Under the pieces are notes generated by a model. The model was not told the DNA's origin, ran no database searches, and was given only the letters and a program-made list of their open reading frames with translations. Of a stretch of 64,000 nt of DNA, positions 46,833 through 60,078 are shown piece by piece (position 1 is the first letter of the stretch; each line of letters opens with the position of its first letter). A program made the translations under genes and the position numbers. This stretch comes from Rhodococcus sp. HNM0563 (lineage in GTDB: Bacteria; Actinomycetota; Actinomycetes; Mycobacteriales; Mycobacteriaceae): assembly GCF_012726195.1 (NCBI RefSeq), contig NZ_JAASAF010000003.1, positions 186,001 to 250,000 of the forward strand, written 5' to 3'.

Positions 46833-47171
46833 TCAGGCGCGACCGGTCACCTTCACGAGGTAGTCGGTCGCGCGGTAGCCGTCCGCCGTCCCCTCGACGA
46901 GGACGGCGACACCGTCGGAGTTCTCCGTGCGGAGCGGGAGGATCTCCTGATACCCGGGTGAGTCGTACCATCCGCGGGCTCGCGCGATGTCGGGGAATTC
47001 GATGACGATCACAAACCCGGGGAAAGGTCCTTCCAGCACCTCCGGGTCGACCCCGTGAACAAGGAAACGTCCTCCGTACGGAGCGAACGTGTCATCGATC
47101 TTCTCGAGGTATCGGATGATGTCCGCGCCGAAGTCGACGGAACTGAGGTGAGCGATTGCGTATGCGGTCAT
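46833..47171 (-). CDS. DUF1330 protein
   Basis: This 112 aa protein has the DUF1330 dimeric alpha-beta fold: MTAYAIAHLSSVDFGADIIR, FLVHGVDPEVLEGPFPGFVI, IEFPDIARARGWYDSPGYQE and LPLRTENSDGVAVLVEG. Function is not established for the family. It touches the mug stop (converging) and diverges from an XRE regulator with 86 bases between, which suggests that the regulator controls it. Confidence 0.88.
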   Translation of the reverse strand: MTAYAIAHLSSVDFGADIIRYLEKIDDTFAPYGGRFLVHGVDPEVLEGPFPGFVIVIEFPDIARARGWYDSPGYQEILPLRTENSDGVAVLVEGTADGYRATDYLVKVTGRA

Positions 47172-47206
47172 GCCGACGACTCTGCAATATCGGGCGCCAC
47201 AGATCG

Positions 47207-47223
47207 ATTACCCATCAGGTAAT
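47207..47223. promoter_or_regulatory. Candidate operator between DUF1330 and XRE genes
   Basis: ATTACC (47207-47212) and GGTAAT (47218-47223) form a perfect 6-base inverted repeat around CATCA, in the 86-base divergent region. It lies 36 bases from the DUF1330 start and 35 from the XRE start, so one site could control both. Confidence 0.5.
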
Positions 47224-47257
47224 GGCAACACTTCCCTCGCGTCCGTAGGGTCGACGC

Positions 47258-48034
47258 ATGACGACGATGCAGTCGGAACCGGCGGGCGCGATGCTGCGAC
47301 ACTGGCGAGAACGTCGAGGACTCAGCCAGCTCACGCTCGCGAACCGCGCGGGCGTCTCTGCGCGACACGTGAGTTTCGTCGAAACCGGCCGGTCGCGCGC
47401 CTCCCGCGACATGCTGTTGAAGATCTGTGAGGAGTTGGAAATACCTCTGCGCGAGCAGAATTCGATCTTGATGGCCGCGGGTCTGGCACCGGCCTATCCC
47501 GAGCATCGGCTCGGCGACGTACCGATGTCCGCGGTGTCCGATGCCATCACGCGAATTCTGCGATCACACCAGCCGTTTCCCGCGCTGGTCGTGGATCGGC
47601 ACTGGACGATGATCGACGCCAACGAAGCCATCGGAGCACTCGTTGCGGGCTGCTCACCGGAATTGCTCGAACCACCGGTCAATGTGCTGCGCCTGTCGTT
47701 GCATCCGAACGGGCTGGCCCCGCGGATCGCGAATCTGGGACAGTGGCGTTCCCATCTGCTGGTCCGGCTCCGTTATCAGATCGGCGCGACCGCCGACCCC
47801 GTTCTCCTGCGCTTGTACGACGAACTGTCCCGCTATCCGTGCGACGACCCGGACGAGCCGGAGGAGCCGCATTCGCTCGTGGTGCCCCTGCGGGTACGCA
47901 CCGACGACGGCGAGCTGTCGTTCTTGAGCACCACCACCTTGTTCGGGACACCGCTCGACGTGACCGTCTCCGAACTCGCGATCGAGGCGTTCTACCCGGC
48001 CGACGACGCGACCGCCGCTGCGCTGCACGGCTGA
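47258..48034 (+). CDS. XRE regulator with MmyB-like ligand domain
   Basis: This 258 aa protein has an N-terminal helix-turn-helix (LRHWRERRGLSQLTLANRAG, VSARHVSFVETGRSRASRDM) and a C-terminal PAS-like MmyB domain from about residue 95 (PFPALVVDRHWTMIDANEA, LSLHPNGLAPRIANLGQW, LSTTTLFGTPLDVTVSELAI). Such regulators usually sit divergent to a short enzyme gene and repress it; here the partner is DUF1330. ATG 47258 with AGGG eight bases upstream. Ligand unknown, possibly a small lipid or quinone-like molecule. Confidence 0.88.
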   Translation: MTTMQSEPAGAMLRHWRERRGLSQLTLANRAGVSARHVSFVETGRSRASRDMLLKICEELEIPLREQNSILMAAGLAPAYPEHRLGDVPMSAVSDAITRILRSHQPFPALVVDRHWTMIDANEAIGALVAGCSPELLEPPVNVLRLSLHPNGLAPRIANLGQWRSHLLVRLRYQIGATADPVLLRLYDELSRYPCDDPDEPEEPHSLVVPLRVRTDDGELSFLSTTTLFGTPLDVTVSELAIEAFYPADDATAAALHG

Positions 48035-48122
48035 GGGCGTAGCGCGAACCCTGTTCTCACCGGGCGTCATGGGCGTACGGTTCGAGAGGAAGCTGTTCGA
48101 ACTGATCCGGAGGCGACCGATC

Positions 48123-48338
48123 ATGAGCACTGCGAAATGGTGGGTGATCGACGGGCGGAAAGACGGATTCGCCGTCGAAGAACGTTCGACCGGGGACATC
48201 GTGGTCACGAACAAGTCCTCGTCCGAAGAACACGTGCTTCACGGGTATGTGTGGAAGCACTCGCCGGTGTTCGGCATCCAGATCCAGAGCGAGGGACCGC
48301 CACCCTACGGGCACTGGGTCGAGAATCCCGACGACTGA
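48123..48338 (+). CDS. 71-residue protein of unknown function
   Basis: This small protein begins MSTAKWWVIDGRKDGFAVEE and ends PPPYGHWVENPDD; it looks like a compact beta-rich domain with several tryptophans. ATG 48123 has GGAGG nine bases upstream, so I do not use the open frame from 48069. It follows the XRE gene by 88 bases on the same strand and converges on the 2H phosphoesterase gene with 7 bases between. No family recognised. Confidence 0.65.
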   Translation: MSTAKWWVIDGRKDGFAVEERSTGDIVVTNKSSSEEHVLHGYVWKHSPVFGIQIQSEGPPPYGHWVENPDD

Positions 48339-48345
48339 TCCCGCG

Positions 48346-48870
48346 TCAAGGCAGATTCTGCAGCCGGTACCGCTCTCCGGTCACGGTGTCGATGAGCTCC
48401 GCCCGCGTCACCGTGGCTTCGATGGGTAGCACGTCGTAGACGACCGCGGTCAACCGTGGGAGTTCGTCGCGCCGGGTCCTCGGACTGAGCGAACAGTGGG
48501 GTGTCCACGACCGCGGCCTGTAGTGGCGGTGCAGTTCGGCGCCGGTGCTCTCCACCGCACGCACCACGAGTTCCTGCCGTACGAGAAGATCCGCGGTGGG
48601 CGCCGGGATCAGGCATGCCCGGCCCCTGCGAAACAGGCCGACAGCATCGAACCTCAGTGGGATCGGGTCGGCTGCGGGCAACGCGTCGAGCGCCGCGAGG
48701 AGTCGACCCGTGTCGTAGGTCCGCAGCACCGCGTACGACAGGTGCGGTACGTGCCTGCAATGTGTGTGGGTGAGGAGCGTGGAGATGCCGTCGTCCTCGA
48801 GGCGTTCCCACAGTCGCCGTACCGCACGGTCGGTGTCGGCGTCGAAGAGCAAGCAGACGGCGAGTGCCAT
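48346..48870 (-). CDS. 2H phosphoesterase (2'-5' RNA ligase-like)
   Basis: This 174 aa protein has the two HxS/T motifs of the 2H phosphoesterase superfamily: HLS in CRHVPHLSYAVL and HCS in WTPHCSLSPR, about 80 residues apart. Members hydrolyse 2',3'-cyclic phosphates or join 2'-5' RNA ends. The substrate is unknown. ATG 48870. The CPBP-protein gene lies 33 bases upstream on the same strand, so both may be co-transcribed. Confidence 0.8.
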   Translation of the reverse strand: MALAVCLLFDADTDRAVRRLWERLEDDGISTLLTHTHCRHVPHLSYAVLRTYDTGRLLAALDALPAADPIPLRFDAVGLFRRGRACLIPAPTADLLVRQELVVRAVESTGAELHRHYRPRSWTPHCSLSPRTRRDELPRLTAVVYDVLPIEATVTRAELIDTVTGERYRLQNLP

Positions 48871-48903
48871 CAGCCGAAGCGTTCGCGAGGCGGCATGGCT
48901 TCG

Positions 48904-49653
48904 TCAGGCCACGGTGACGTGCCACACGAGCGCTGCCGCGAGCGCCCCGGCGCCGTTGAGCGACCAGTGCAACGCGATCGGCGCGAGGATGCTGCCGCTC
49001 CGCCGGCGGAGCCAGGTGAACACGAACCCTGCCGCTGCGGTCGCGATCACGGCGCCGGCGATCCCTGCGAGCTGTGCCCAGATTCCGGCGCCGAGGAAAG
49101 CGCTCAGTCCGGCGTTGCCCGCGGTCAGCCCGAACGACGATGCGATGTGCCACAGGCCGAACAGCAATGACCCGACCGCGAAGACACCTCGGGCTCCCCA
49201 CACACGCTCGAGGGTGCCGTGCAGGACACCGCGGAAGGCGAGTTCCTCGGGGATGACGGTCTGCAACGGGATGATGATCATCGACGCAACCAGTGCGCCG
49301 GACACGGTCGCGTACCGTTCGGACAGGAAGAACTGCCTGGTGAACGGTAGCGCGATGCCGATGGCAACCACGGCGAGGACCAGCCCGATCGCGCCCACCG
49401 AGTAGAGCGTGCCGCGCTTCCAATGCCGCGGCGACAGCCCGAGTTCGTTCCAGTGCATGCCACGCTGCCGCATGATCGCGACGAGCACTGCGGCAGCGAT
49501 GGGGACTGTGGCAATCGATGCCCAGACGGTGGTGAAGTGCGCGACAAGATTCGTGGCGACGAGTACTGCGACGACGACGCACACGTCGACCCATGCGTGG
49601 AACTGTGGAACCCGTCGGACGATCGGGACGATCCGTTCTGCTTCGACAGTCAC
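48904..49653 (-). CDS. CPBP-family intramembrane metalloprotease
   Basis: This 249 aa protein has seven or eight membrane helices and the Abi/CPBP motifs: EExxxR in IPEELAFRGVLHG, FxxxH in LLFGLWHIAS and HxxxN in IALHWSLNG. These bind a metal and indicate a type II CAAX-protease-like active site. GTG 49653 follows GGAGAGGG by about seven bases; the longer frame from 49812 adds a non-membrane leader. Family members act in immunity to bacteriocins or in processing; its role here is unknown. Confidence 0.87.
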   Translation of the reverse strand: MTVEAERIVPIVRRVPQFHAWVDVCVVVAVLVATNLVAHFTTVWASIATVPIAAAVLVAIMRQRGMHWNELGLSPRHWKRGTLYSVGAIGLVLAVVAIGIALPFTRQFFLSERYATVSGALVASMIIIPLQTVIPEELAFRGVLHGTLERVWGARGVFAVGSLLFGLWHIASSFGLTAGNAGLSAFLGAGIWAQLAGIAGAVIATAAAGFVFTWLRRRSGSILAPIALHWSLNGAGALAAALVWHVTVA

Positions 49654-49872
49654 GCGCGAACCCTCTCCACCAGGTGTGATACAGGGAAACGGGAGGTTAC
49701 GTGCGGGTTGCTCGAGAACATCTCCCCCAGTATACGGACCGAACCAACCGATCCCCGTGACGCACATCACGATCCGCACACTCGAGGGATGCGTCACACG
49801 CCCCGTTGTCAAGGCCTTGCGTCGACGCGACTAATCTGATTGGCGAACCTCAGCCTCTTTTCAGGAGAAACA

Positions 49873-51570
<1,698 letters not shown>

Positions 51571-51591
51571 ACTTCGGTCTACCGACGGAAA

Positions 51592-51669
51592 ATCCGCTCC
51601 CGCGATCGAATTCGCTTCCCGCTACGGCAATTACCGATGTGGGAAGCTGGGCCGGTCGCGGGAGCGGAT
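51592..51669. terminator. Nested inverted repeat after fumarase
   Basis: Outer 14-base arms ATCCGCTCCCGCGA (51592-51605) and TCGCGGGAGCGGAT (51656-51669) enclose inner 7-base arms GCTTCCC (51614-51620) and GGGAAGC (51641-51647). It lies between convergent genes and may be a bidirectional terminator or a structured RNA. Confidence 0.55.
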
Positions 51670-51685
51670 CTCCCTGAGTCCAGGG

Positions 51686-52078
51686 TCAGGCGGCGCAGGA
51701 ATGCGTACGGGACAGAACCGCCGGCGACTGCGCGACCACACTCTGCAGGAAGCCCGCTACGACGTCCGGTGAGGGTTCTTCACCGGGAGCAAGGATCTCA
51801 CACAGGCGACGGTAGGTGTCGTCGCTCAGCACAGGTGCCACGCGGAAGTGCGTGGTCATCGCCAACGTGAACGCGATTCCGTGACTGCGGGAGCGCACCA
51901 GCAACTCGGGGCCGTGTTGGCCCTCGGTCAAACAGATCTCGAAGACAGCACCACCTGCGTCGTGTTCGAACGACGCGGACGCTACGTTGCTTCGGATCAT
52001 TTGACGATGAAGGGGACGCAGTCCGCCGAGCACCAGCGGCGGAAGCGTCACAGTGCGAAAACGGTCGGCGGTGAACAT
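51686..52078 (-). CDS. 130-residue protein of unknown function
   Basis: I do not recognise this protein. It starts MFTADRFRTVTLPPLVLGGL, is predicted mixed alpha-beta with no membrane helix or signal, and ends VLSRTHSCAA. ATG 52078 has AAGGAGAG seven bases upstream. It is divergent from the PopR-like XRE gene, and the shared region carries two tandem palindromes, so it is probably a regulated gene of that or a related XRE protein. Confidence 0.7.
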   Translation of the reverse strand: MFTADRFRTVTLPPLVLGGLRPLHRQMIRSNVASASFEHDAGGAVFEICLTEGQHGPELLVRSRSHGIAFTLAMTTHFRVAPVLSDDTYRRLCEILAPGEEPSPDVVAGFLQSVVAQSPAVLSRTHSCAA

Positions 52079-52129
52079 GCGAATCTCTCCTTGCGCTACC
52101 CCGGCCATGGTACTCCGACCGGGAATTTT

Positions 52130-52162
52130 CTGGAATCAGTCCAATAACTGGAACTATTCCAG
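52130..52162. promoter_or_regulatory. Tandem palindromic operators
   Basis: CTGGAA-CTA-TTCCAG (52148-52162) is a perfect 6-N3-6 palindrome. A second, imperfect copy CTGGAA-TCA-GTCCAA begins 18 bases to the left (52130-52144). The whole block is framed by TTTTCTGGAAT (52126-52136) and ATTCCAGAAAA (52156-52166), an 11-base inverted repeat. It lies 51-115 bases upstream of the 130 aa gene and about 130 upstream of the XRE gene. Confidence 0.6.
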
Positions 52163-52294
52163 AAAACGGCACACTTCGCAATCATCACACCCGAGGTATG
52201 GGTCACGTCGACGGCCGGTCTTGACGGAGGGCCCGAATACGCGCGTGTTCGTCCACAGCGGAACCGAGTCCGCTCCACGTATTCCGGCGGAACA

Positions 52295-52642
52295 ATGGAC
52301 GACATGCACACGGAGCCACGGAACGTCGTCGATCTCGGAGCCGCCCGCGCCGCCCGCGAACCGAGGTTGCTTCGTCAGGTGTACGGCGAAGTTCTCCGCA
52401 GCGAGCGGCTCGACCAGGACCGCAGTCTCGACGAAGTCGCCCGCACCGTAGGGATGTCGAAACAATATCTGTCCGAGATCGAGCGCGGACGCAAAGACCC
52501 GTCCTCGGAGATACTCGGGTCGGTCTGCACGGCACTGGGCATGCCGGTGGAACAACTCCTCGAGCGGGGAATCCGCCGCATGTCGGCACACCGCGCGATC
52601 GGAACCACACAGCAGACCACAGTGGAACTGCGTGCGGCCTGA
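52295..52642 (+). CDS. PopR/ClgR-like XRE transcriptional regulator
   Basis: This 115 aa regulator has a basic-acidic leader, then LLRQVYGEVLRSERLDQDRS and the helix-turn-helix DEVARTVGMSKQYLSEIERG, followed by RKDPSSEILGSVCTALGMPV. The LSEIERGRKxPSSE core is that of ClgR and PopR, activators of clp genes in actinobacteria. The C-terminus ends RAA; a terminal Ala-Ala is the Clp degradation tag described for Streptomyces PopR. A secondary clpP pair lies 0.6 kb downstream. No clear ribosome-binding site is seen; M4 is an alternative start. Whether it controls clpP or the 130 aa gene is inference. Confidence 0.8.
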   Translation: MDDMHTEPRNVVDLGAARAAREPRLLRQVYGEVLRSERLDQDRSLDEVARTVGMSKQYLSEIERGRKDPSSEILGSVCTALGMPVEQLLERGIRRMSAHRAIGTTQQTTVELRAA

Positions 52643-52773
52643 CTCCGATCCACAAAGCAATTCAACAGATTTCGAATCTTCGGTCTCCGGATTCGTTGCA
52701 CAATGCCACAATCGGCAGGGAAACAACCGTCCACACGTGGTATCTCACGCTGCCGAATCGTCAAAGGAGAGGA

Positions 52774-53268
52774 ATGTACCGGAAAGTTCCCGGTCTCGTC
52801 GTCACCTCGTTCGTCGCCACCACCGCTGCTGCTCTGTCACTGAGCGTAGGCGCGGCCCACGCGAACCCCCTGGGATCGATCGACTTCACTCCACCTACCG
52901 ATCCCGTCGAAACACCGTTCTGCAGCATCGAATACCCCGACCCCAACCAGTTCGACCGCATCGACGTCAGCGACGTGACGGTGTCCTCTCCGGCGGACGG
53001 GCAAGCAACGTTCACCTTCCACACACGGTCACAGACCACGGCACCGTACACACAGGCCGCGTCGGTGACGTGGGCGAACCTCGACAGCGGAATCAGCGGT
53101 GTCGGCGACACCTCGGCACGAATCGGAGCGGGTGAAACAACCCTCACCGTGCCGGTGCAGAACACAGGCACCGGACGCGTCACTGCAGTAACGCGAGTCA
53201 CCAACACTGCAGACAACGGGCAGGACGTCACGACGCTCGATTGTGTCTCCGAGTACACAGTTCCCTGA
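52774..53268 (+). CDS. Secreted protein of unknown function
   Basis: This 164 aa protein has a signal peptide MYRKVPGLVVTSFVATTAAA then LSLSVGAAHA with likely cleavage before NPLGS. The mature part looks like a beta-sandwich: ATFTFHTRSQTTAPYTQAAS, LTVPVQNTGTGRVTAVTRV; two cysteines (PFCSIEY and TLDCVSEY) may form a disulfide. ATG 52774 has AAAGGAGAGGA directly upstream, which rules out the longer frame. It follows the XRE gene by 131 bases and converges on clpP with 18 bases between. Confidence 0.75.
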   Translation: MYRKVPGLVVTSFVATTAAALSLSVGAAHANPLGSIDFTPPTDPVETPFCSIEYPDPNQFDRIDVSDVTVSSPADGQATFTFHTRSQTTAPYTQAASVTWANLDSGISGVGDTSARIGAGETTLTVPVQNTGTGRVTAVTRVTNTADNGQDVTTLDCVSEYTVP

Positions 53269-53286
53269 CACGCTGCGTTCCCACCC

Positions 53287-53883
53287 CTAGACGTCGCCGC
53301 GGTCGACGACGATATGGTCGGCGAGTCCGTAGGCGACAGCCTCCTCCGGAACGAAGATGCGGTCCCGGTCGGTGTCGCGACGAAGTTGCTCCACGTCACG
53401 GCCGGTGTGCGCGGCGAGGATCTCCTCGGTCTGTGCCCGCACCCGCATCACCTCCGCCGCCTGCAACGCGAGGTCGGAGATGGTGCCCTGCCCCTGCGCC
53501 GACGGCTGGTGCAGCAGAACTTTCGAGTGTGCCAGCACATGCCGTCGTCCCTGTGCTCCGGCTGCCAGGAGAACAGCGGCAGCGGAGGAGGCCTGACCCA
53601 TGCAGTAGGTGGCCACGGCCGGACGCAGGAATTGCATGGTGTCGTAGATCGCGAGCATCGCCGTGGTCGAGCCGCCCGGCGAGTTGATGTACAGCCCGAT
53701 CTCCCGGTCGGGCGAGTCCGCTTCGAGGTGCAGCATCTGGGCCATCACGACATTTGCGACGCCGTCGTCGATCTCGGTGCCCAAGAAGATGATCCGCTCG
53801 TTGAGCAGCCGGCTGAAGACATCGAACGACCGCTCCCCTCCCGGTGTTCGTTCGATGACGTTGGGGATCGTGTACGAGCTCAT
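53287..53883 (-). CDS. clpP: ClpP-family serine peptidase, second of pair
   Basis: This 198 aa ClpP subunit has the full triad: S100 in [11 protein letters not shown]125 in [12 protein letters not shown]174 in DRDRIF. The start [20 protein letters not shown] resembles propeptide-bearing ClpP2-type subunits. ATG 53883 has AGGAGG seven bases upstream and overlaps the TGA of the upstream clpP (ATGA). Neither tig nor clpX is adjacent, unlike the housekeeping clpP1P2 locus of this order, so I read the pair as the secondary, clpP3P4-like set. It would form a mixed 14-mer with its partner. Confidence 0.93.
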
Positions 53884-54509
53884 CGGACGTCCTCCTGCCG
53901 GTCGGCGGACAATCCGAGCCGACGCGCTGCGGCAAACGGAGCAACCTCCTGCAGCGACCCGACGACGGCGTCGACGATCCCGTACTCGCGAGCCTGGTCG
54001 GCGGTGAACCACCGGTCGCGGTCACTGTCGCGGGCGATCTCCTCCACCGAACGCCCGGTGGCCTCGGCGAGAATCAGCTGCGACTGCTGCTTCATGTACT
54101 CGAGGTGCTCGGCCGCGATCGCGATGTCGACGGCAGTACCCGAGAACCCTGCGGACGGCTGGTGCATCATGATGCGACTGTGCGGCAAGCTCAGCCGTTT
54201 ACCTTTCGTGCCCGACGCGAGAAGCACCTGCCCCATGCTCGCGGCGAAGCCGACGGCGACAGTGACCACGTCGTTGGCGATGAGGCGCATCGTGTCGTAG
54301 ATAGCCAGCCCGGCGAGAACCGATCCGCCCGGAGAGTTGATGTGGAGGACGATGTCGCGTCGGTCGTCCTCGCTGGCGAGCAACACCAGTTCCGAACAGA
54401 CACGTTCGGCCATTTCGTCGTCCACCTCGCCGGTGAGGAGGAGGGTGCGGTGCCGAAAGAGTCTTTCGACAAGGGTGTCGTGATAAGTGGAGCTTCCGTT
54501 TGTTGCCAT
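53880..54509 (-). CDS. clpP: ClpP-family serine peptidase, first of pair
   Basis: This 209 aa ClpP subunit has S91 in [12 protein letters not shown]116 in [12 protein letters not shown] and D165 in DSDRDRWF, so the triad is intact. The start [20 protein letters not shown] gives the usual handle region [21 protein letters not shown] 54509 has AAGGTGAG three to ten bases upstream. The second clpP overlaps it by ATGA. A perfect 19-base palindrome sits 39 bases before the ATG, which suggests a dedicated regulator, probably the PopR-like protein nearby. Confidence 0.93.
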
Positions 54510-54548
54510 GCGCTCACCTTTACGGGTTCCGGCCCGAATCGGTCCGTT

Positions 54549-54567
54549 TGTCTGCCCAGGGCAGACA
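54549..54567. promoter_or_regulatory. PopR-like palindromic operator upstream of clpP
   Basis: TGTCTGCCC-A-GGGCAGACA is a perfect 19-base palindrome 40 bases upstream of the first clpP ATG. Read as TCTGCC-N3-GGCAGA it matches the core of the Streptomyces clpP3 promoter site that I recall as TTCTGCC-N3-GGCAGAA. This supports activation by a PopR-type regulator. Confidence 0.65.
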
Positions 54568-54635
54568 GTGCACCTTGCGGCGGGAACCAACCCCGAAACA
54601 TATGCTATCGGAACGCCTAGGCCTGACCACACACC

Positions 54636-54719
54636 GAAGTAAGCAGACGAAACAGGAACCTCGCAGGGCCAGTGGTCAACCACCAGCCCTGCGAGGTTTA
54701 CATTTGCCCTGCTTACTTC
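54636..54719. repeat. Nested inverted repeat
   Basis: Outer 11-base arms GAAGTAAGCAG (54636-54646) and CTGCTTACTTC (54709-54719) enclose inner 13-base arms AACCTCGCAGGGC (54657-54669) and GCCCTGCGAGGTT (54686-54698). The inner loop contains TGGTCAACCA, also self-complementary. It lies in a gene-free gap between divergent genes, so a simple terminator role is not expected. Confidence 0.7.
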
Positions 54720-54877
54720 CGGAGCGCTAGTGCTCGTCGGTGAGGGCCAGCAGTCCGCAGAGTTCCACTGTCCCCAAGGCGGTGCACGCGGTCAAGGGAG
54801 CTGACCGAGCCGCTTCTCCGTGTCCTCCGAGCGGCCAGCGGGTATACGAGCTGCACACCTTCGAAAGGAGCCACGCC

Positions 54878-55594
54878 ATGACCGAAGCCCTGTTCGTCGT
54901 CAGCGCTGCCGATCACTGGACTCTTCAGGACGGCACCCACCATCCCACCGGTTTCTGGGCGGAAGAACTCGTGGAGCCCTACACCGCCTTCGACGAGGCC
55001 GGCTACACCATCACCGTCGCGACTCCAGGCGGGCGCACTCCGGTCGTTGACCCTGCCAGCCTCGAACCCGACACTGCCGGAGGAGAGGACCGCGCCGCGG
55101 CTCTCGAAGCGTCGTTGCACAACTTGCATCCCGTGCTCGAGCATGCTGTACCACTCGAACGCCAGCGCGCCGATGATTTCGATCTACTGTTCGTGCCCGG
55201 TGGCCACGCGCCGATGGAAGACCTTGCCGTCGACGAAAAGTTCGGTGAGCTCGTGCGGCATTTCGTCGACTCGGACAAGATCGTCGCGATGGTGTGCCAC
55301 GCCCCCGCAGCACTTCTTCCCGCTTTCGCGTCGGGCGGGCGTTGGTTGTTCGAGGGCTACCGATTGACCTCCTTCACCAACCTCGAGGAGGCGCAGGCAG
55401 GACTCGCAGACAAGGCCCCCTGGTTGCTGCAGGATCGGCTCCAGGAAGCGGGCGCGGTCTTCTCGTCCGAAGATCCGTGGCAACCTCACGTCGTGGTCGA
55501 TCGCGGTCTGTACACCGGTCAGAACCCCGCGTCGTCGCGGCCGCTGGCCGAGCGGGTCGTCGCCGACGTGGCCGGTCAGGGAACTACACGCTGA
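54878..55594 (+). CDS. DJ-1/PfpI family protein (Hsp31-like)
   Basis: This 238 aa protein belongs to the Hsp31/glyoxalase III branch of the DJ-1/PfpI superfamily. The nucleophile elbow is VCHAPAALL with the cysteine, the partner acid is probably in WAEELVEPYTAF, and FVPGGHAPMEDL follows the family. Members detoxify methylglyoxal or act as chaperones or deglycases. ATG 54878 with AAGGAG eight bases upstream replaces the longer open frame. Its 3' end overlaps the convergent flavin-enzyme gene by 19 bases. Confidence 0.88.
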   Translation: MTEALFVVSAADHWTLQDGTHHPTGFWAEELVEPYTAFDEAGYTITVATPGGRTPVVDPASLEPDTAGGEDRAAALEASLHNLHPVLEHAVPLERQRADDFDLLFVPGGHAPMEDLAVDEKFGELVRHFVDSDKIVAMVCHAPAALLPAFASGGRWLFEGYRLTSFTNLEEAQAGLADKAPWLLQDRLQEAGAVFSSEDPWQPHVVVDRGLYTGQNPASSRPLAERVVADVAGQGTTR

Positions 55595-56133
55595 CCGCTC
55601 CACCCACTGTCCCGGCGGACGAACTTCCAACGCGCGTGGCGGGGTACCGACAGGTCGAGCCAGTCGAGCCGCTCGAGTTCCACACCCACCCACGCAAAGC
55701 GTTCGAAAGCGGTCGCATCGTCGTCGAACGCCTCCGGTCGCTCTCGCATCGGCGTGCCGGGGACCGCCGGCGAACTGTACAGCTCGCGACTGTGGGGCCC
55801 GAACGTCTCCCACACCGATTCCCGCTCGTCGGTGTCGTCGACGAGGACGGCGTGGCCTTCGACGCGTAGTTGCACCGCGCGCTGATCGTCGCCCATCGTC
55901 AGCGCGACACGTGGGTTGCGCCGGATCTCGGGCACTTTCTCCGACCGTGAGTCGGTCGCGAACATGACCCGGCTCCGTACCGGGTCGAAGCGGCGAAGGA
56001 TCACCGCACGAACCCGCGGTCCACCATCGATGCCCACCGTTCCCAGATACCCGAGGGTGAACGGCGTGCGCCGCGCGGTCGCGTCCTGCAGCGACCCGAC
56101 GATCAGCTCGAGGACCTCTTCGCTCGTTGTCAT
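55576..56133 (-). CDS. Pyridoxamine-5'-phosphate-oxidase-like flavoprotein
   Basis: This 185 aa protein has the split-barrel FMN-binding fold: TPFTLGYLGTVGIDGGPRVR, AVILRRFDPVRSRVMFATD, SRSEKVPEIRRNPRVAL and the C-terminal WKFVRR-containing extension. The RAVILRRFD and SEK-x-x-x-I pattern matches the Alr4036-like branch of the PNPOx family. Substrate and whether it uses FMN or F420 are unknown. ATG 56133 has AGGTG six bases upstream; it lies 10 bases after the MFS stop, so likely co-transcribed with the carrier. Confidence 0.82.
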   Translation of the reverse strand: MTTSEEVLELIVGSLQDATARRTPFTLGYLGTVGIDGGPRVRAVILRRFDPVRSRVMFATDSRSEKVPEIRRNPRVALTMGDDQRAVQLRVEGHAVLVDDTDERESVWETFGPHSRELYSSPAVPGTPMRERPEAFDDDATAFERFAWVGVELERLDWLDLSVPRHARWKFVRRDSGWSGQRVVP

Positions 56134-56142
56134 GACGGGCAC

Positions 56143-57462
56143 CTAGTCCTCGAGGGCGACCTGCGCCCGCTCCGGGAGGGTGATCGCCGCAACCGCAGCG
56201 ATCACGAACGACACCGCGAACATCGAGAACACCAGACCGTTTCCACCACCGTCGAGAAGCAGTGGGACGAGTAGCGGAGCGATGATGGACGCGAGGCGCC
56301 CGAACGCGGCGGCAGCACCGGTTCCCGATCCACGCACCGACGTCGGATACAACTCCGGTCCGATTGCATACAGCGCACCCCACGCGCCGAGGTTGAAGAA
56401 GGAGAGTGCCATTCCCGCGGCAATGATCGTGCCGGGGGTGTCTGCGAGACCGAACAACGCCGCCGAGACCGCCGACCCCGCCAGGAACAGCGCAAGTGTG
56501 GTGCGCCTGCCCCACACTTCGATCAGCCACGCGGCGACGGCGTAACCGGGAAGCTGCGCGAGGGTGATGATCAGGGTGTACCCGAATGAGGTGACCAGGT
56601 CGAAGCCCTGTGCCACGAGCAGGCTCGGTAACCAGATGAACGCGCCGTAGTACGAGAAGTTGATGCCGAACCACACGATCCACAGCGCTGCCGTGCGGGC
56701 GCGCAACCCCGCGTCCCAGATCGATCGCCGCGCAACCTCGGCCTGTGCTGTCTCGGACGGCGCATCGTCCGCCACGTCTGTCCGGGGCGCGACACCGGCG
56801 GAGCGTTCGTAGTCGAGGACGATCGCTTCGGCCTCATCGGTGCGGCCTCTGCTCTCGAGAAACCGCACCGATTCCGGCAATCCCAGACGCACGACAAGTG
56901 CGTACGCGGCCGGAACGAGACCGATCGCGAGAGCCCACCGCCACCCGTCGTCGTTCAGCGGTACGACGAAGTACCCGATCAGTGCTGCAAGAAGCCACCC
57001 GGCAGCCCAGAAGGCTTCGAGCGCCACCACGACGCGACCACGGATTTTGCGCGGCGCGAATTCGCTGACCAGCGTCGACGCCACCGGAAGTTCGGCGCCG
57101 AGCCCGAGTCCCACCACGAAACGCAGCGCGATGAGCATCGCGACCGACGTCGACAACGCGGCCGCGCCCGTCGCCAGTCCGTAGAGCAGGAGCGTCGCAG
57201 CGAATACCTGCCTGCGGCCGATGCGGTCGGCGAGCAGACCACCGACCGACGCACCGATCGCCATGCCGAGGAAGCCGATGGACCCGATCCACGACAGTTG
57301 AGTGGACGACAGATCCCACTGCACTGCCAGCGCCGCCATGACGAACGAGATCAGGCCGACGTCCATCGCGTCGAGTGCCCAGCCCACACCGGACCCTGCC
57401 AGCAGGCGGCGGTGCTTGGCGGTGAACGGCAGTTCGTCGAGCCGCTGGGTACGCGTGGTCAT
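56143..57462 (-). CDS. MFS transporter (metabolite:H+ symporter type)
   Basis: This 439 aa protein has 12 membrane helices with a cytoplasmic loop near the middle (DYERSAGVAPRTDVADDAPS). Motif A GGLLADRIGRRQVF after helix 2 and its second copy WLIEVWGRRTTLAL are clear, and GLGLGAELPVASTLVSEFAP is typical of the aromatic-acid/sugar/niacin group. It probably imports a small organic acid or sugar. ATG 57462. It is followed by the flavoprotein gene; no catabolic operon is adjacent on the same strand except the VOC gene 36 bases upstream. Confidence 0.87.
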   Translation of the reverse strand: MTTRTQRLDELPFTAKHRRLLAGSGVGWALDAMDVGLISFVMAALAVQWDLSSTQLSWIGSIGFLGMAIGASVGGLLADRIGRRQVFAATLLLYGLATGAAALSTSVAMLIALRFVVGLGLGAELPVASTLVSEFAPRKIRGRVVVALEAFWAAGWLLAALIGYFVVPLNDDGWRWALAIGLVPAAYALVVRLGLPESVRFLESRGRTDEAEAIVLDYERSAGVAPRTDVADDAPSETAQAEVARRSIWDAGLRARTAALWIVWFGINFSYYGAFIWLPSLLVAQGFDLVTSFGYTLIITLAQLPGYAVAAWLIEVWGRRTTLALFLAGSAVSAALFGLADTPGTIIAAGMALSFFNLGAWGALYAIGPELYPTSVRGSGTGAAAAFGRLASIIAPLLVPLLLDGGGNGLVFSMFAVSFVIAAVAAITLPERAQVALED

Positions 57463-57498
57463 GGATCGGAAGTTACACGGTGCCTCCGTGGAAGGTGC

Positions 57499-57972
57499 TC
57501 ACCCGCGTGCGGCTTCCTCCAGGATGGCTATGTCGATTTTCTGCATCTTCATGAACGCGTCGCTGACCCGCTGCGCGACCGACCTATCGGGGTCGGCGAG
57601 CAACTCCACGACTCGTCGAGGCACCACCTGCCATGACAGCCCGAACCGATCTCTGAGCCAGCCGCACTGCGATTCCTCGCCGCCGTCGGCGAGGAGCGAA
57701 TTCCAGTAGTGATCGACTTCGTCCTGGTCGCCGCAGTCGATCTGGAACGACACCGCTTCGGTGAACTGGAACTGCGGCCCACCGTTCAGCGCAGTGAAGC
57801 GCGAACCGTCGAGTTCGAATTCCACGGTCAACACGGTACCGGCCGGGAACGGCCCGTCCTCCGGGTAGTAGGAGGTGCTCAGGATCTTCGAATTGGGGAA
57901 GACGGAGGTATAGAACTCGGCGGCTTCCTGCGCGTTCATGTCGAACCACAGGCACGGGGTGAGGGCGGGCAT
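57499..57972 (-). CDS. VOC-superfamily protein (PhnB / 3-demethylubiquinone methyltransferase-like)
   Basis: This 157 aa protein is a vicinal-oxygen-chelate fold protein of the PhnB/YjdN type: PCLWFDMNAQEAAEFYTSVF, GTVLTVEFELDGSRFTALNG, GPQFQFTEAVSFQIDCGDQD, WLRDRFGLSWQVVP. Despite a common database name it is not a proven methyltransferase. The second start codon (ATG 57972) is 7 bases from AAGGAG and is preferred over GTG 57975. It lies between the unknown 208 aa gene and the MFS gene on the same strand. Confidence 0.88.
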   Translation of the reverse strand: MPALTPCLWFDMNAQEAAEFYTSVFPNSKILSTSYYPEDGPFPAGTVLTVEFELDGSRFTALNGGPQFQFTEAVSFQIDCGDQDEVDHYWNSLLADGGEESQCGWLRDRFGLSWQVVPRRVVELLADPDRSVAQRVSDAFMKMQKIDIAILEEAARG

Positions 57973-58041
57973 CACGAGGCTCCTTCATAGGTCGTGCGGC
58001 TGTCATATGGACTGACCGCCACCGAAGAGAAACCTCATCGT

Positions 58042-58668
58042 TCACTCGACGGCGAGCTGAACAGGTGGTTCTCGGAGCACCCGGTCGGGCCACAGGCTTG
58101 CTCCGGCATGACCGAGCAGCAGTTTGGTGTAGTACACCGGCGCGAACCAGGGCGCAGTGCGAGACGATCCGAGTGCCCGGTCCAAGGCGATGCCACCCAC
58201 GGTCAGCGCCACACCGAGCGGGCGCCGATATCGTGGGGTGGCACGAATCGCGACGGTCGCGGCCATCATGTAGCCGTACTGCGCGCCCGCCCACAGCCAC
58301 ACCGATATGCGGTTCGCCTCGTCCCGATCCCACCAAGCAAAGACGAACGGATGTACGTGCAGTGCAGCAAATTTCAGGTGATCGGTTCCGGACGCGCCGG
58401 GACGCTCGTACCAGCGGGCGCACGCACGAGTGTTGTTCACCCATGCCCCACCCCACAGATCGACCGCACACGCGCGAAGAATCAACGATTCGGTGCCGGA
58501 CAGGTCGCGCGATCGGCGTGAGAGTGTCGGTGCTCCGATAGCGCCGAGTACCGATAGCGCCGCGGTGACCGTGTTTTCCACGGGTCCCGCCTCGGGCCCC
58601 ACGAACTCGTCCCACGCCTGTCGAAGTCTTCCTCGTGCTCCCATGCCTGCCCAGTCTGCCACCGACAC
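58042..58668 (-). CDS. 208-residue protein of unknown function at the end of the polyol operon
   Basis: I do not recognise this family. The protein has Trp/Ala-rich hydrophobic stretches (about 100-112 and 120-138, FAALHVHPFVFAWWDRDEAN, ISVWLWAGAQYGYMMAATVA) that could be two or three membrane helices, and several His residues. It starts 7 bases after the xylulokinase stop, on the same strand, so is probably co-transcribed. GTG 58668 opens the frame; ATG 58644 is the alternative. A role linked to polyol uptake is possible only by context. Confidence 0.65.
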   Translation of the reverse strand: MSVADWAGMGARGRLRQAWDEFVGPEAGPVENTVTAALSVLGAIGAPTLSRRSRDLSGTESLILRACAVDLWGGAWVNNTRACARWYERPGASGTDHLKFAALHVHPFVFAWWDRDEANRISVWLWAGAQYGYMMAATVAIRATPRYRRPLGVALTVGGIALDRALGSSRTAPWFAPVYYTKLLLGHAGASLWPDRVLREPPVQLAVE

Positions 58669-58674
58669 GCTGTT

Positions 58675-60078
58675 TCAGGGGCCGACACCATCCGTCAGAT
58701 CCCGTACCTCGGCGTACCGCCGACGGACGTGCGGGGCCGGGTCGGCTTCGTAACGTCTGATCGAGCCCTCCGCCCACTTCGGGGGTTCGTGGCCACCTCG
58801 CAGCACCCACGCGGCCTGCCGTGCTGCACCGCGGGCGACGTACTCACCCGGTTCGGGCACGTCCACCGGCAGACCGAAGATCGCAGGTGCGAGCTCACAC
58901 AGGGCCTGGGACCTCGCCCCTCCCCCGACCATCAGCACCCGCCGGACCGGTGTGCCTTGACCGATGATGTGGTCGATACCCTCGGCCAGCGAACAGAGCA
59001 ACCCCTCGACGGCGGCGCGGGCCAGGTGCGCGGGTGTCGAATTCGTCAGTCGCATACCGTGAATCGCGCCGGTCGCGCCGGGGCGGTTGGGAGTCCGCTC
59101 GCCCTCGAGATACGGCACCAGTACGAGGCCGTCGCTGCCCATGGGGGCAGACAGCGCGAGCCGGGTCAGTTCTGCACGTTCGACACCGAGCATCGATGCG
59201 GTCGCGTCGAGCACCCTGGCCCCGTTGAGCGTGCACACGAGCGGTAGGTGCCGCCCGGTCGCGTCGGCGAACCCGGCGACGTATCCGTCCGGGTCGCGCG
59301 GGGCGGTCGCCGACACCGCGCACACCACGCCGGATGTGCCGATCGATACGACGACGTCACCTTCTCGCGCATCCAATGCCAATGCCGCAGCCGCATTGTC
59401 GCCGGCTCCGGGGCCGAGCAACGCACCCCAAGGTGTTTCCCCGACGGAATCGACCGGCCCGGCAATGGAGGGCAACGCCGGACTCGACCGGCGCAGTGCA
59501 AGTTCGAGCAGATCACGACGGTAGTCGCCGGTAGTGGCATCGAAGTAGCCGGTACCGCTCGCATCGCTACGATCGGTGGCGAGCGCGCGGAGGTCGGAGC
59601 TGCCTGCGATTCGCCACGTCAACCAATCGTGCGGTAGGCACAAAGCCGCTGTGCGCGCAGCATTGTCAGGTTCGTGGTCGGCAAGCCAGCGGGCTTTGGC
59701 GACGGTGATCGCGGCGACCGGCACGACTCCGACTGCGTCCGCCCATTCCTCGGCCCCACCGAGATCGCGGACCAGATCCGCTGCCGACTCAGCGGATCTG
59801 TTGTCGTTCCACAGCAGAGCATCTCGTACGATCCGACCGGAGGAGTCGAGGCACACCATCCCATGCTGTTGCGCACCCACCGACACCGCAGCGACGTCCT
59901 CGAGGCCCCCGGCCGCGGCGATCGCCTCGTCGAGCGCCGCCGACCATGCCTGAGGATCCACTTCTGTTCCGTCCGGGTGCGTCGCTCGGCCTTCTCGGAC
60001 CACGGCCCCGGTGTCCGCGTCGCACACCATCACCTTGCAGGATTGGGTGGACGAATCCACGCCGGCTACCAACGTCAT
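58675..60078 (-). CDS. xylB: Xylulokinase
   Basis: XylB (467 aa) phosphorylates D-xylulose. FGGY-kinase motifs: [20 protein letters not shown] at the start, [12 protein letters not shown], the catalytic aspartate in [26 protein letters not shown]-like VSIGTSGVV and [11 protein letters not shown]. The QQHGMV and NDNRS forms favour xylulokinase over glycerol kinase. ATG 60078 overlaps the stop of the PfkB kinase (ATGA). Length is slightly short but complete. It fits a pathway in which a dehydrogenase makes D-xylulose from arabitol or xylitol. Confidence 0.93.

Follow-up and report, generated by a model that had tools for sequence, protein, structure and literature searches.

A probable PopR-controlled backup ClpP module (clpP3P4) in Rhodococcus sp. 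HNM0563 and its occurrence among the Actinomycetota

The window, by which we mean the whole stretch of 64,000 nucleotides of Rhodococcus sp. HNM0563 that was analysed, contains two adjacent clpP genes on the minus strand. The first of the pair, clpP3 (53880 to 54509), encodes a protein of 209 amino acids (Pfam CLP_protease, 1.3e-68) that falls on the ClpP1-like side of the ClpP tree; the second, clpP4 (53287 to 53883), encodes one of 198 amino acids (CLP_protease, 2.9e-69). Both reading frames are intact and are coupled by an ATGA overlap, as a preliminary description of the locus had proposed. In an alignment of the four ClpP proteins of this genome the Ser-His-Asp triad is present in both ClpP3 and ClpP4, at the positions that we take to be those of the triad, and an N-terminal stretch of the ClpP2 type is kept in ClpP4 and absent from ClpP3. 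Convergent on clpP4, rather than placed ahead of the clpP promoter, lies the gene of an XRE regulator of 115 amino acids, designated popR here (52295 to 52642, plus strand), with the C-terminus VELRAA; the codons for its terminal L-R-A-A (52628 to 52639, plus strand) would specify a putative Clp degron. The start of popR that is common to its relatives is the second Met at 52304, which is probably the true one. The flanking genes recognized with Pfam encode a fumarase, a DJ-1/PfpI protein, a PNPOx-like protein, and an MFS transporter. The same description had already reported the regulator with its RAA end and the lack of tig and clpX nearby; by eye, neither appears in the list of open reading frames from 47000 to 60000. 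Its interval, 52295 to 54509, took in the genes, but ended at the start codon of clpP3 and so missed the putative PopR operator at 54549 to 54567, a perfect 19-bp palindrome (TGTCTGCCC-A-GGGCAGACA).

An open reading frame of 164 amino acids (52774 to 53268, plus strand) sits between popR and clpP4; it is of the secreted type, with a signal-peptide-like start, and has no match in Pfam or NCBIfam. Among the 32 loci searched it occurs only in the genome of the window (G000), in G010, and in G011 / Rhodococcus sp. SMB37, and it is probably an insertion of its clade and not part of the circuit. Divergent from popR is another frame, of 130 amino acids (51686 to 52078, minus strand), which is unassigned to a family, also ends in Ala-Ala (SCAA), and has no match within the flanks of the other 31 loci searched. 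An inverted repeat between this frame and popR (52126 to 52166; TTTTCTGGAATCAGTCCA / TGGAACTATTCCAGAAAA) is a possible operator. On the other side of the locus, between clpP3 and the DJ-1/PfpI gene, there is a long imperfect inverted repeat (54636 to 54719) with 41-nt arms that are 78% complementary and a gap of 2 nt.

The tail of PopR is conserved: in the genus, the E, the L, and the final A-A are invariant in 12 of 12 PopR proteins, while the linker that precedes them varies, and on this ground a chance -AA tail was rejected. Including near-duplicates, 73 of the 76 PopR rows linked to a clpP pair end in AA, compared with none of the 42 open reading frames of at least 120 amino acids in the window that passed a codon filter (the filter skipped the frame at 51686 to 52078, which has AA). 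The -AA tail alone does not mark a PopR, since all 18 ClgR rows of the genus carry it as well.

The preliminary description had suggested looking for a separate clpP1P2 pair beside tig and clpX, and such a pair exists. A search with ClpP3 returns four ClpP matches in the genome: two are those of the window, and two lie side by side on contig C44 (locus L010) in the order tig-clpP1-clpP2-clpX, tig and clpX being recognized by eye from their translations. The same contig carries the nearest relative of the window's XRE protein (C44:361301; 44% identity over the HTH region), which is the genome's own ClgR and lies near a gene that by eye is PspA-like. An alternative is that the window's regulator acts as a second ClgR on the general Clp regulon and lies close to clpP3P4 incidentally. 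Its best curated family match is indeed ClgR, and both proteins end in AA. With the NCBIfam ClgR model, however, it reaches 76 bits against a cut-off of 170, though the test is weak, since the 137 bits of the genome's own ClgR fall short of it as well. The published ClgR box GTTCGC-N5-GCG is absent upstream of both clpP3 and clpP1 in the four stretches scanned, and a C. glutamicum ClgR consensus has no match in these stretches either. A looser ClgR-type CGC-N5-GCG occurs only before clpP1 (around position 4000 of L010, between tig and clpP1); with six fixed bases it is a weak match.

A tree of the regulators also bears on this alternative. A branch with an SH-aLRT of 97 parts 41 rows from 26: the former, of which 38 were scored as linked to a clpP pair, hold the window's PopR together with six Streptomyces-like PopRs; the latter hold the genome's own ClgR and the mycobacterial ClgRs, and also take in four clpP-linked rows of Micromonosporaceae (Actinoplanes, Paractinoplanes, Asanoa). 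The XRE protein thus groups with the clpP-linked PopRs, apart from the genome's own ClgR, which agrees with its earlier designation as PopR-like; as an ordinary ClgR it was rejected, being on the opposite side of the tree. The tree was made by a quick method from 67 hand-picked rows of 124 distinct ones, with two fragments dropped, and with so short a protein, and no ClgR from Streptomyces among the rows, the grouping is support rather than proof. We hold a second ClgR in an incidental position to be very improbable. The ClpP tree that the preliminary description had called for (73 of 75 rows, likewise by a quick method, with two L214 rows dropped as repeats of L211) unites ClpP3 in one clade (SH-aLRT 98) and ClpP4 in another (91); both window proteins lie inside these clades, along with those of three Streptomyces-like genomes.

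The strongest single piece of evidence, and the decisive one, is the palindrome at 54549 to 54567. Within it, the 15-nt core TCTGCC-N3-GGCAGA (54551 to 54565) is exact. According to a review (PMC9775585), PopR of S. lividans activates the clpP3 operon through TCTGCC-3N-GGCGAATCTGCC-3N-GGCAGA. The exact core occurs once in the 5,543,300 bases (5.54 Mb) of the genome, directly upstream of clpP3; one exact match does not in itself amount to proof, since the exact core is also found away from clpP3 in three of the 18 genomes of the genus (G002, G014, and G017), two of them lacking popR. Among 70 distinct upstream regions of clpP3 the best site has no mismatch to the core in 15, one in 33, two in 12, three in 8, and four in 2, so that 48 of the 70 have a site with at most one mismatch against 0.07 expected, a count that overstates the number of independent cases because the regions are related. 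The controls were order-1 Markov-resampled sequences, which on average gave no exact site, 0.07 with one mismatch, and 1.06 with two. In the genus, each of the 13 clpP3 genes is preceded by a site that departs from the core at two positions or fewer (two exact, in G000 and G001; eight with one; three with two). A chance palindrome was rejected on the strength of the single site genome-wide and of the resampled control. The looser pattern GTCTGCY-N3-RGCRGAC matches in at least 231 of 401 genomes of the family; it is unspecific on its own and was therefore not used for co-occurrence.

The distance of this site from the gene is nearly constant. In a first set, the core begins at -57 (21 promoters) or -56 (15) from the ATG of clpP3 in all 36 distinct promoters, drawn from 42 loci after removal of four duplicates, one locus without the pair, and one without a nearby ATG; in the window it begins at -56. 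A second set gave 19 usable promoters, 12 with the core at -54 to -57 and seven with it at -70 to -119; of the 12, six are from Nocardiaceae and six from outside, including Actinoplanes and Ilumatobacter. These 19 were what was left of 75 loci once 32 without the pair, six with a single clpP, eight where no ATG was near (these include the six Streptomyces-like loci), and ten without a site had been set aside; the last ten belong to the 29 pairs of this set whose start was usable, and have no site within two mismatches. The two sets overlap, several named loci being genomes or species of the genus set (for example L084 and G011).

Whether such a site would serve an activator or a repressor can be judged from its surroundings. 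XRE proteins are often repressors. All 36 first-set promoters have a C at -1, and many show a TAGTAAT-like stretch at -13 to -7, which we read as the -10 element of an mRNA without a leader. The operator would then adjoin the -35 region on its upstream side, and a site so placed would suit an activator better than a blocker. In the window the -10 is less clear, and TAAAGGTGAGCGC before the ATG may be either a ribosome site or a -10, which leaves some room for another reading of the same parts: PopR might repress clpP3P4, or activate it on a signal other than ClpP1P2 failure, such as growth stage or stress. We consider this unlikely, given a core fixed at -56/-57 upstream of the -10-like stretch in many relatives and a Streptomyces orthologue that is called an activator (PMC9765437). 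The position of the operator, taken together with the analogy to Streptomyces, thus speaks for PopR as a probable activator of clpP3P4 transcription.

Regulator and pair also travel together. Of the 18 genus genomes, 12 carry a PopR orthologue (E <= 4.9e-33), 13 carry the clpP3P4 pair, and five have neither. The exception is G005 (locus L080, G005:C2:4116500-4123500), which retains clpP3P4 and the operator and is missing popR: its alignment with the near relative G006 breaks on both sides of popR, with 539 bases missing, which marks it, as far as an alignment can tell, as a natural loss of popR alone. In G010, a draft genome that is 75% complete, clpP3 is in two overlapping pieces. Across the 401 genomes of the family, 41 have both PopR and ClpP3, one has PopR only (G277, 74% complete), one has ClpP3 only (G005), and 358 have neither; the two genes thus occur together in 41 of the 43 genomes having either, which is a further argument against a second ClgR standing by chance beside clpP3P4. 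The cut for PopR (E <= 1.1e-34; 42 genomes) was set post hoc at a gap from 1.1e-34 to 5.9e-29, and that for ClpP3 (at least 70% identity; 42 genomes) at a gap between 70% and 59%. The co-occurrence omits 16 g30 genomes with weaker PopR-like matches (E 5.9e-29 to 9.5e-26); with all 58 genomes having a PopR-like match, ClpP3 of the 70% type is found in 41 and not in 17. Many other genomes of the family have four ClpP matches and a more distant ClpP3, and the module may accordingly extend beyond the genomes counted here.

A scan of the contigs of named organisms with a PopR alignment gave at least 80 loci, and counts from these are not frequencies. Among the matches listed (80 loci), 48 have a clpP match (a pair in 42, a single clpP in 6) and 32 have none, many of the latter being mycobacterial ClgR. 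Among these same matches, the 42 loci with a reversed clpP pair beside a popR-like gene represent at least 16 genera: Rhodococcus, Nocardia, Antrihabitans, Microbispora, Microtetraspora, Agromyces, Actinoplanes (with Paractinoplanes), Asanoa, Gordonia, Nocardioides, Cellulomonas, Sanguibacter, Kineococcus, Paenarthrobacter, Ilumatobacter, and Mycolicibacterium (M. hodleri). Evidently, the popR-clpP3P4 arrangement is not special to Rhodococcus. A different layout is seen at six Micromonospora loci (L117, L126, L127, L131, L134, and L137), where a PopR-like gene and a single clpP lie on the same strand and the exact TCTGCC-N3-GGCAGA core stands 114 to 132 nt before the estimated clpP start in six of six. 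At three Tsukamurella loci (L105, L109, and L110) the PopR-like proteins end in AAA and no clpP lies within about 5 kb on each side; a similar stretch is also found on a plasmid record of T. tyrosinosolvens. A plasmid origin of the module was rejected, as a tblastn search of a plasmid collection with PopR produced two weak matches.

The kind of system is already known. The work on PopR and clpP3-clpP4 of S. lividans is that of Viala et al. (2000, 2002), as cited in PMC9775585, PMC9765437, and PMC12607617. In Streptomyces, ClpP1P2 removes PopR, so that clpP3P4 is silent until ClpP1P2 fails (PMC9765437, PMC12607617), and the two C-terminal alanines of the S. lividans PopR are given as the likely recognition site (PMC9775585). 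The window shares with that system a second ClpP pair beside the housekeeping pair, with members in the ClpP3 and ClpP4 clades; a ClgR-like XRE gene convergent on clpP4; the C-terminal Ala-Ala of PopR; and the core TCTGCC-N3-GGCAGA upstream of clpP3. At each of the six Streptomyces-like loci, popR converges on a clpP3-clpP4 pair and its product ends in CLAA. Differences are found in the operator, with two tandem palindromes in Streptomyces and one in the window, in its distance (in the Streptomyces-like G423 about 135 nt separate the nearer core from the estimated start of clpP3, compared with 56 nt in the window), and in the extra secreted-type frame between popR and clpP4. The full double operator, at no more than one mismatch, was found in six of 396 genomes of the phylum, all in the genus group g34, of which 11 genomes were sampled; these six, presumed to be Streptomyces, supply the Streptomyces-like loci that anchor our trees. 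The comparison with ClgR is less close: it is likewise an XRE activator of clp genes with a homologous HTH and an Ala-rich C-terminus, and in Streptomyces it is a Clp substrate (PMC9765437), whereas the genome has its own ClgR elsewhere, across the tree from the window protein, and the clpP3 site is unlike the ClgR box. In the open-access literature, outside which most subscription papers lie, we found no description of PopR-clpP3P4 in Rhodococcus. PMC4416901, the one paper in which both names occur, mentions PopR solely in the reference list, and PMC7142297, PMC8182300, and PMC11005422 added no further PopR-clpP3P4 host outside Streptomyces. What is new is therefore the presence of the system in this Rhodococcus-type genome, its breadth in the Actinomycetota, the single-palindrome operator, and the fixed distance from operator to start.

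From all this we are highly confident that the locus is a PopR-controlled ClpP3P4 backup protease module, and the backup role that the preliminary description had given to this ClpP pair is supported. By analogy with Streptomyces, PopR would be made continuously and kept low by the housekeeping ClpP1P2 through its C-terminal Ala-Ala degron. Should ClpP1P2 be absent, inhibited, or overloaded, the level of PopR would rise; PopR would bind the one palindrome, some 50 nt ahead of the start codon of clpP3, and recruit RNA polymerase, so that clpP3 and clpP4 would be transcribed. ClpP3 and ClpP4 would assemble into a mixed core that stands in for the housekeeping one. The ring on which the ATPases dock would likely be ClpP4, because the ATPases of M. 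tuberculosis dock on ClpP2 (PMC4416901) and ClpP4 has the ClpP2-type N-terminus. A different assembly is conceivable since ClpP3 is ClpP1-like and ClpP4 is ClpP2-like: by subunit exchange with ClpP1 or ClpP2, they might form specialised hybrid cores under some conditions and not a stand-alone backup. In ADEP-producing Streptomyces an extra ClpP does pair with ClpP2 (PMC12607617). Against this, clpP3 and clpP4 are adjacent at those 42 named loci, among the matches listed, where a pair occurs, and their products are therefore probably made together; we give hybrid cores only a small chance and hold to a ClpP3P4 core of its own.

On a wider scale, we lean towards the view that PopR-ClpP3P4 is an old, phylum-wide alarm for ClpP failure and not a Streptomyces peculiarity: a self-erasing activator that serves as a gauge of ClpP1P2 activity. 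The clpP3 promoter on which it acts would probably be leaderless, with the operator kept 54 to 57 nt ahead of the start codon across the range from Rhodococcus to Ilumatobacter. ClpP1 and ClpP2 of M. tuberculosis are treated as drug targets. Both are essential in that organism (PMC4416901), and if the alarm reading is true, Rhodococcus-type bacteria would survive the loss of ClpP1P2, unlike mycobacteria with one pair. The popR-less genome G005 offers a natural test of clpP3P4 without its switch, and the conserved operator with its fixed spacing provides a simple reporter of Clp failure. If many relatives hold such a stand-by ClpP pair, neither essentiality nor drug response may be transferred from one genus to another without a check for popR-clpP3P4.
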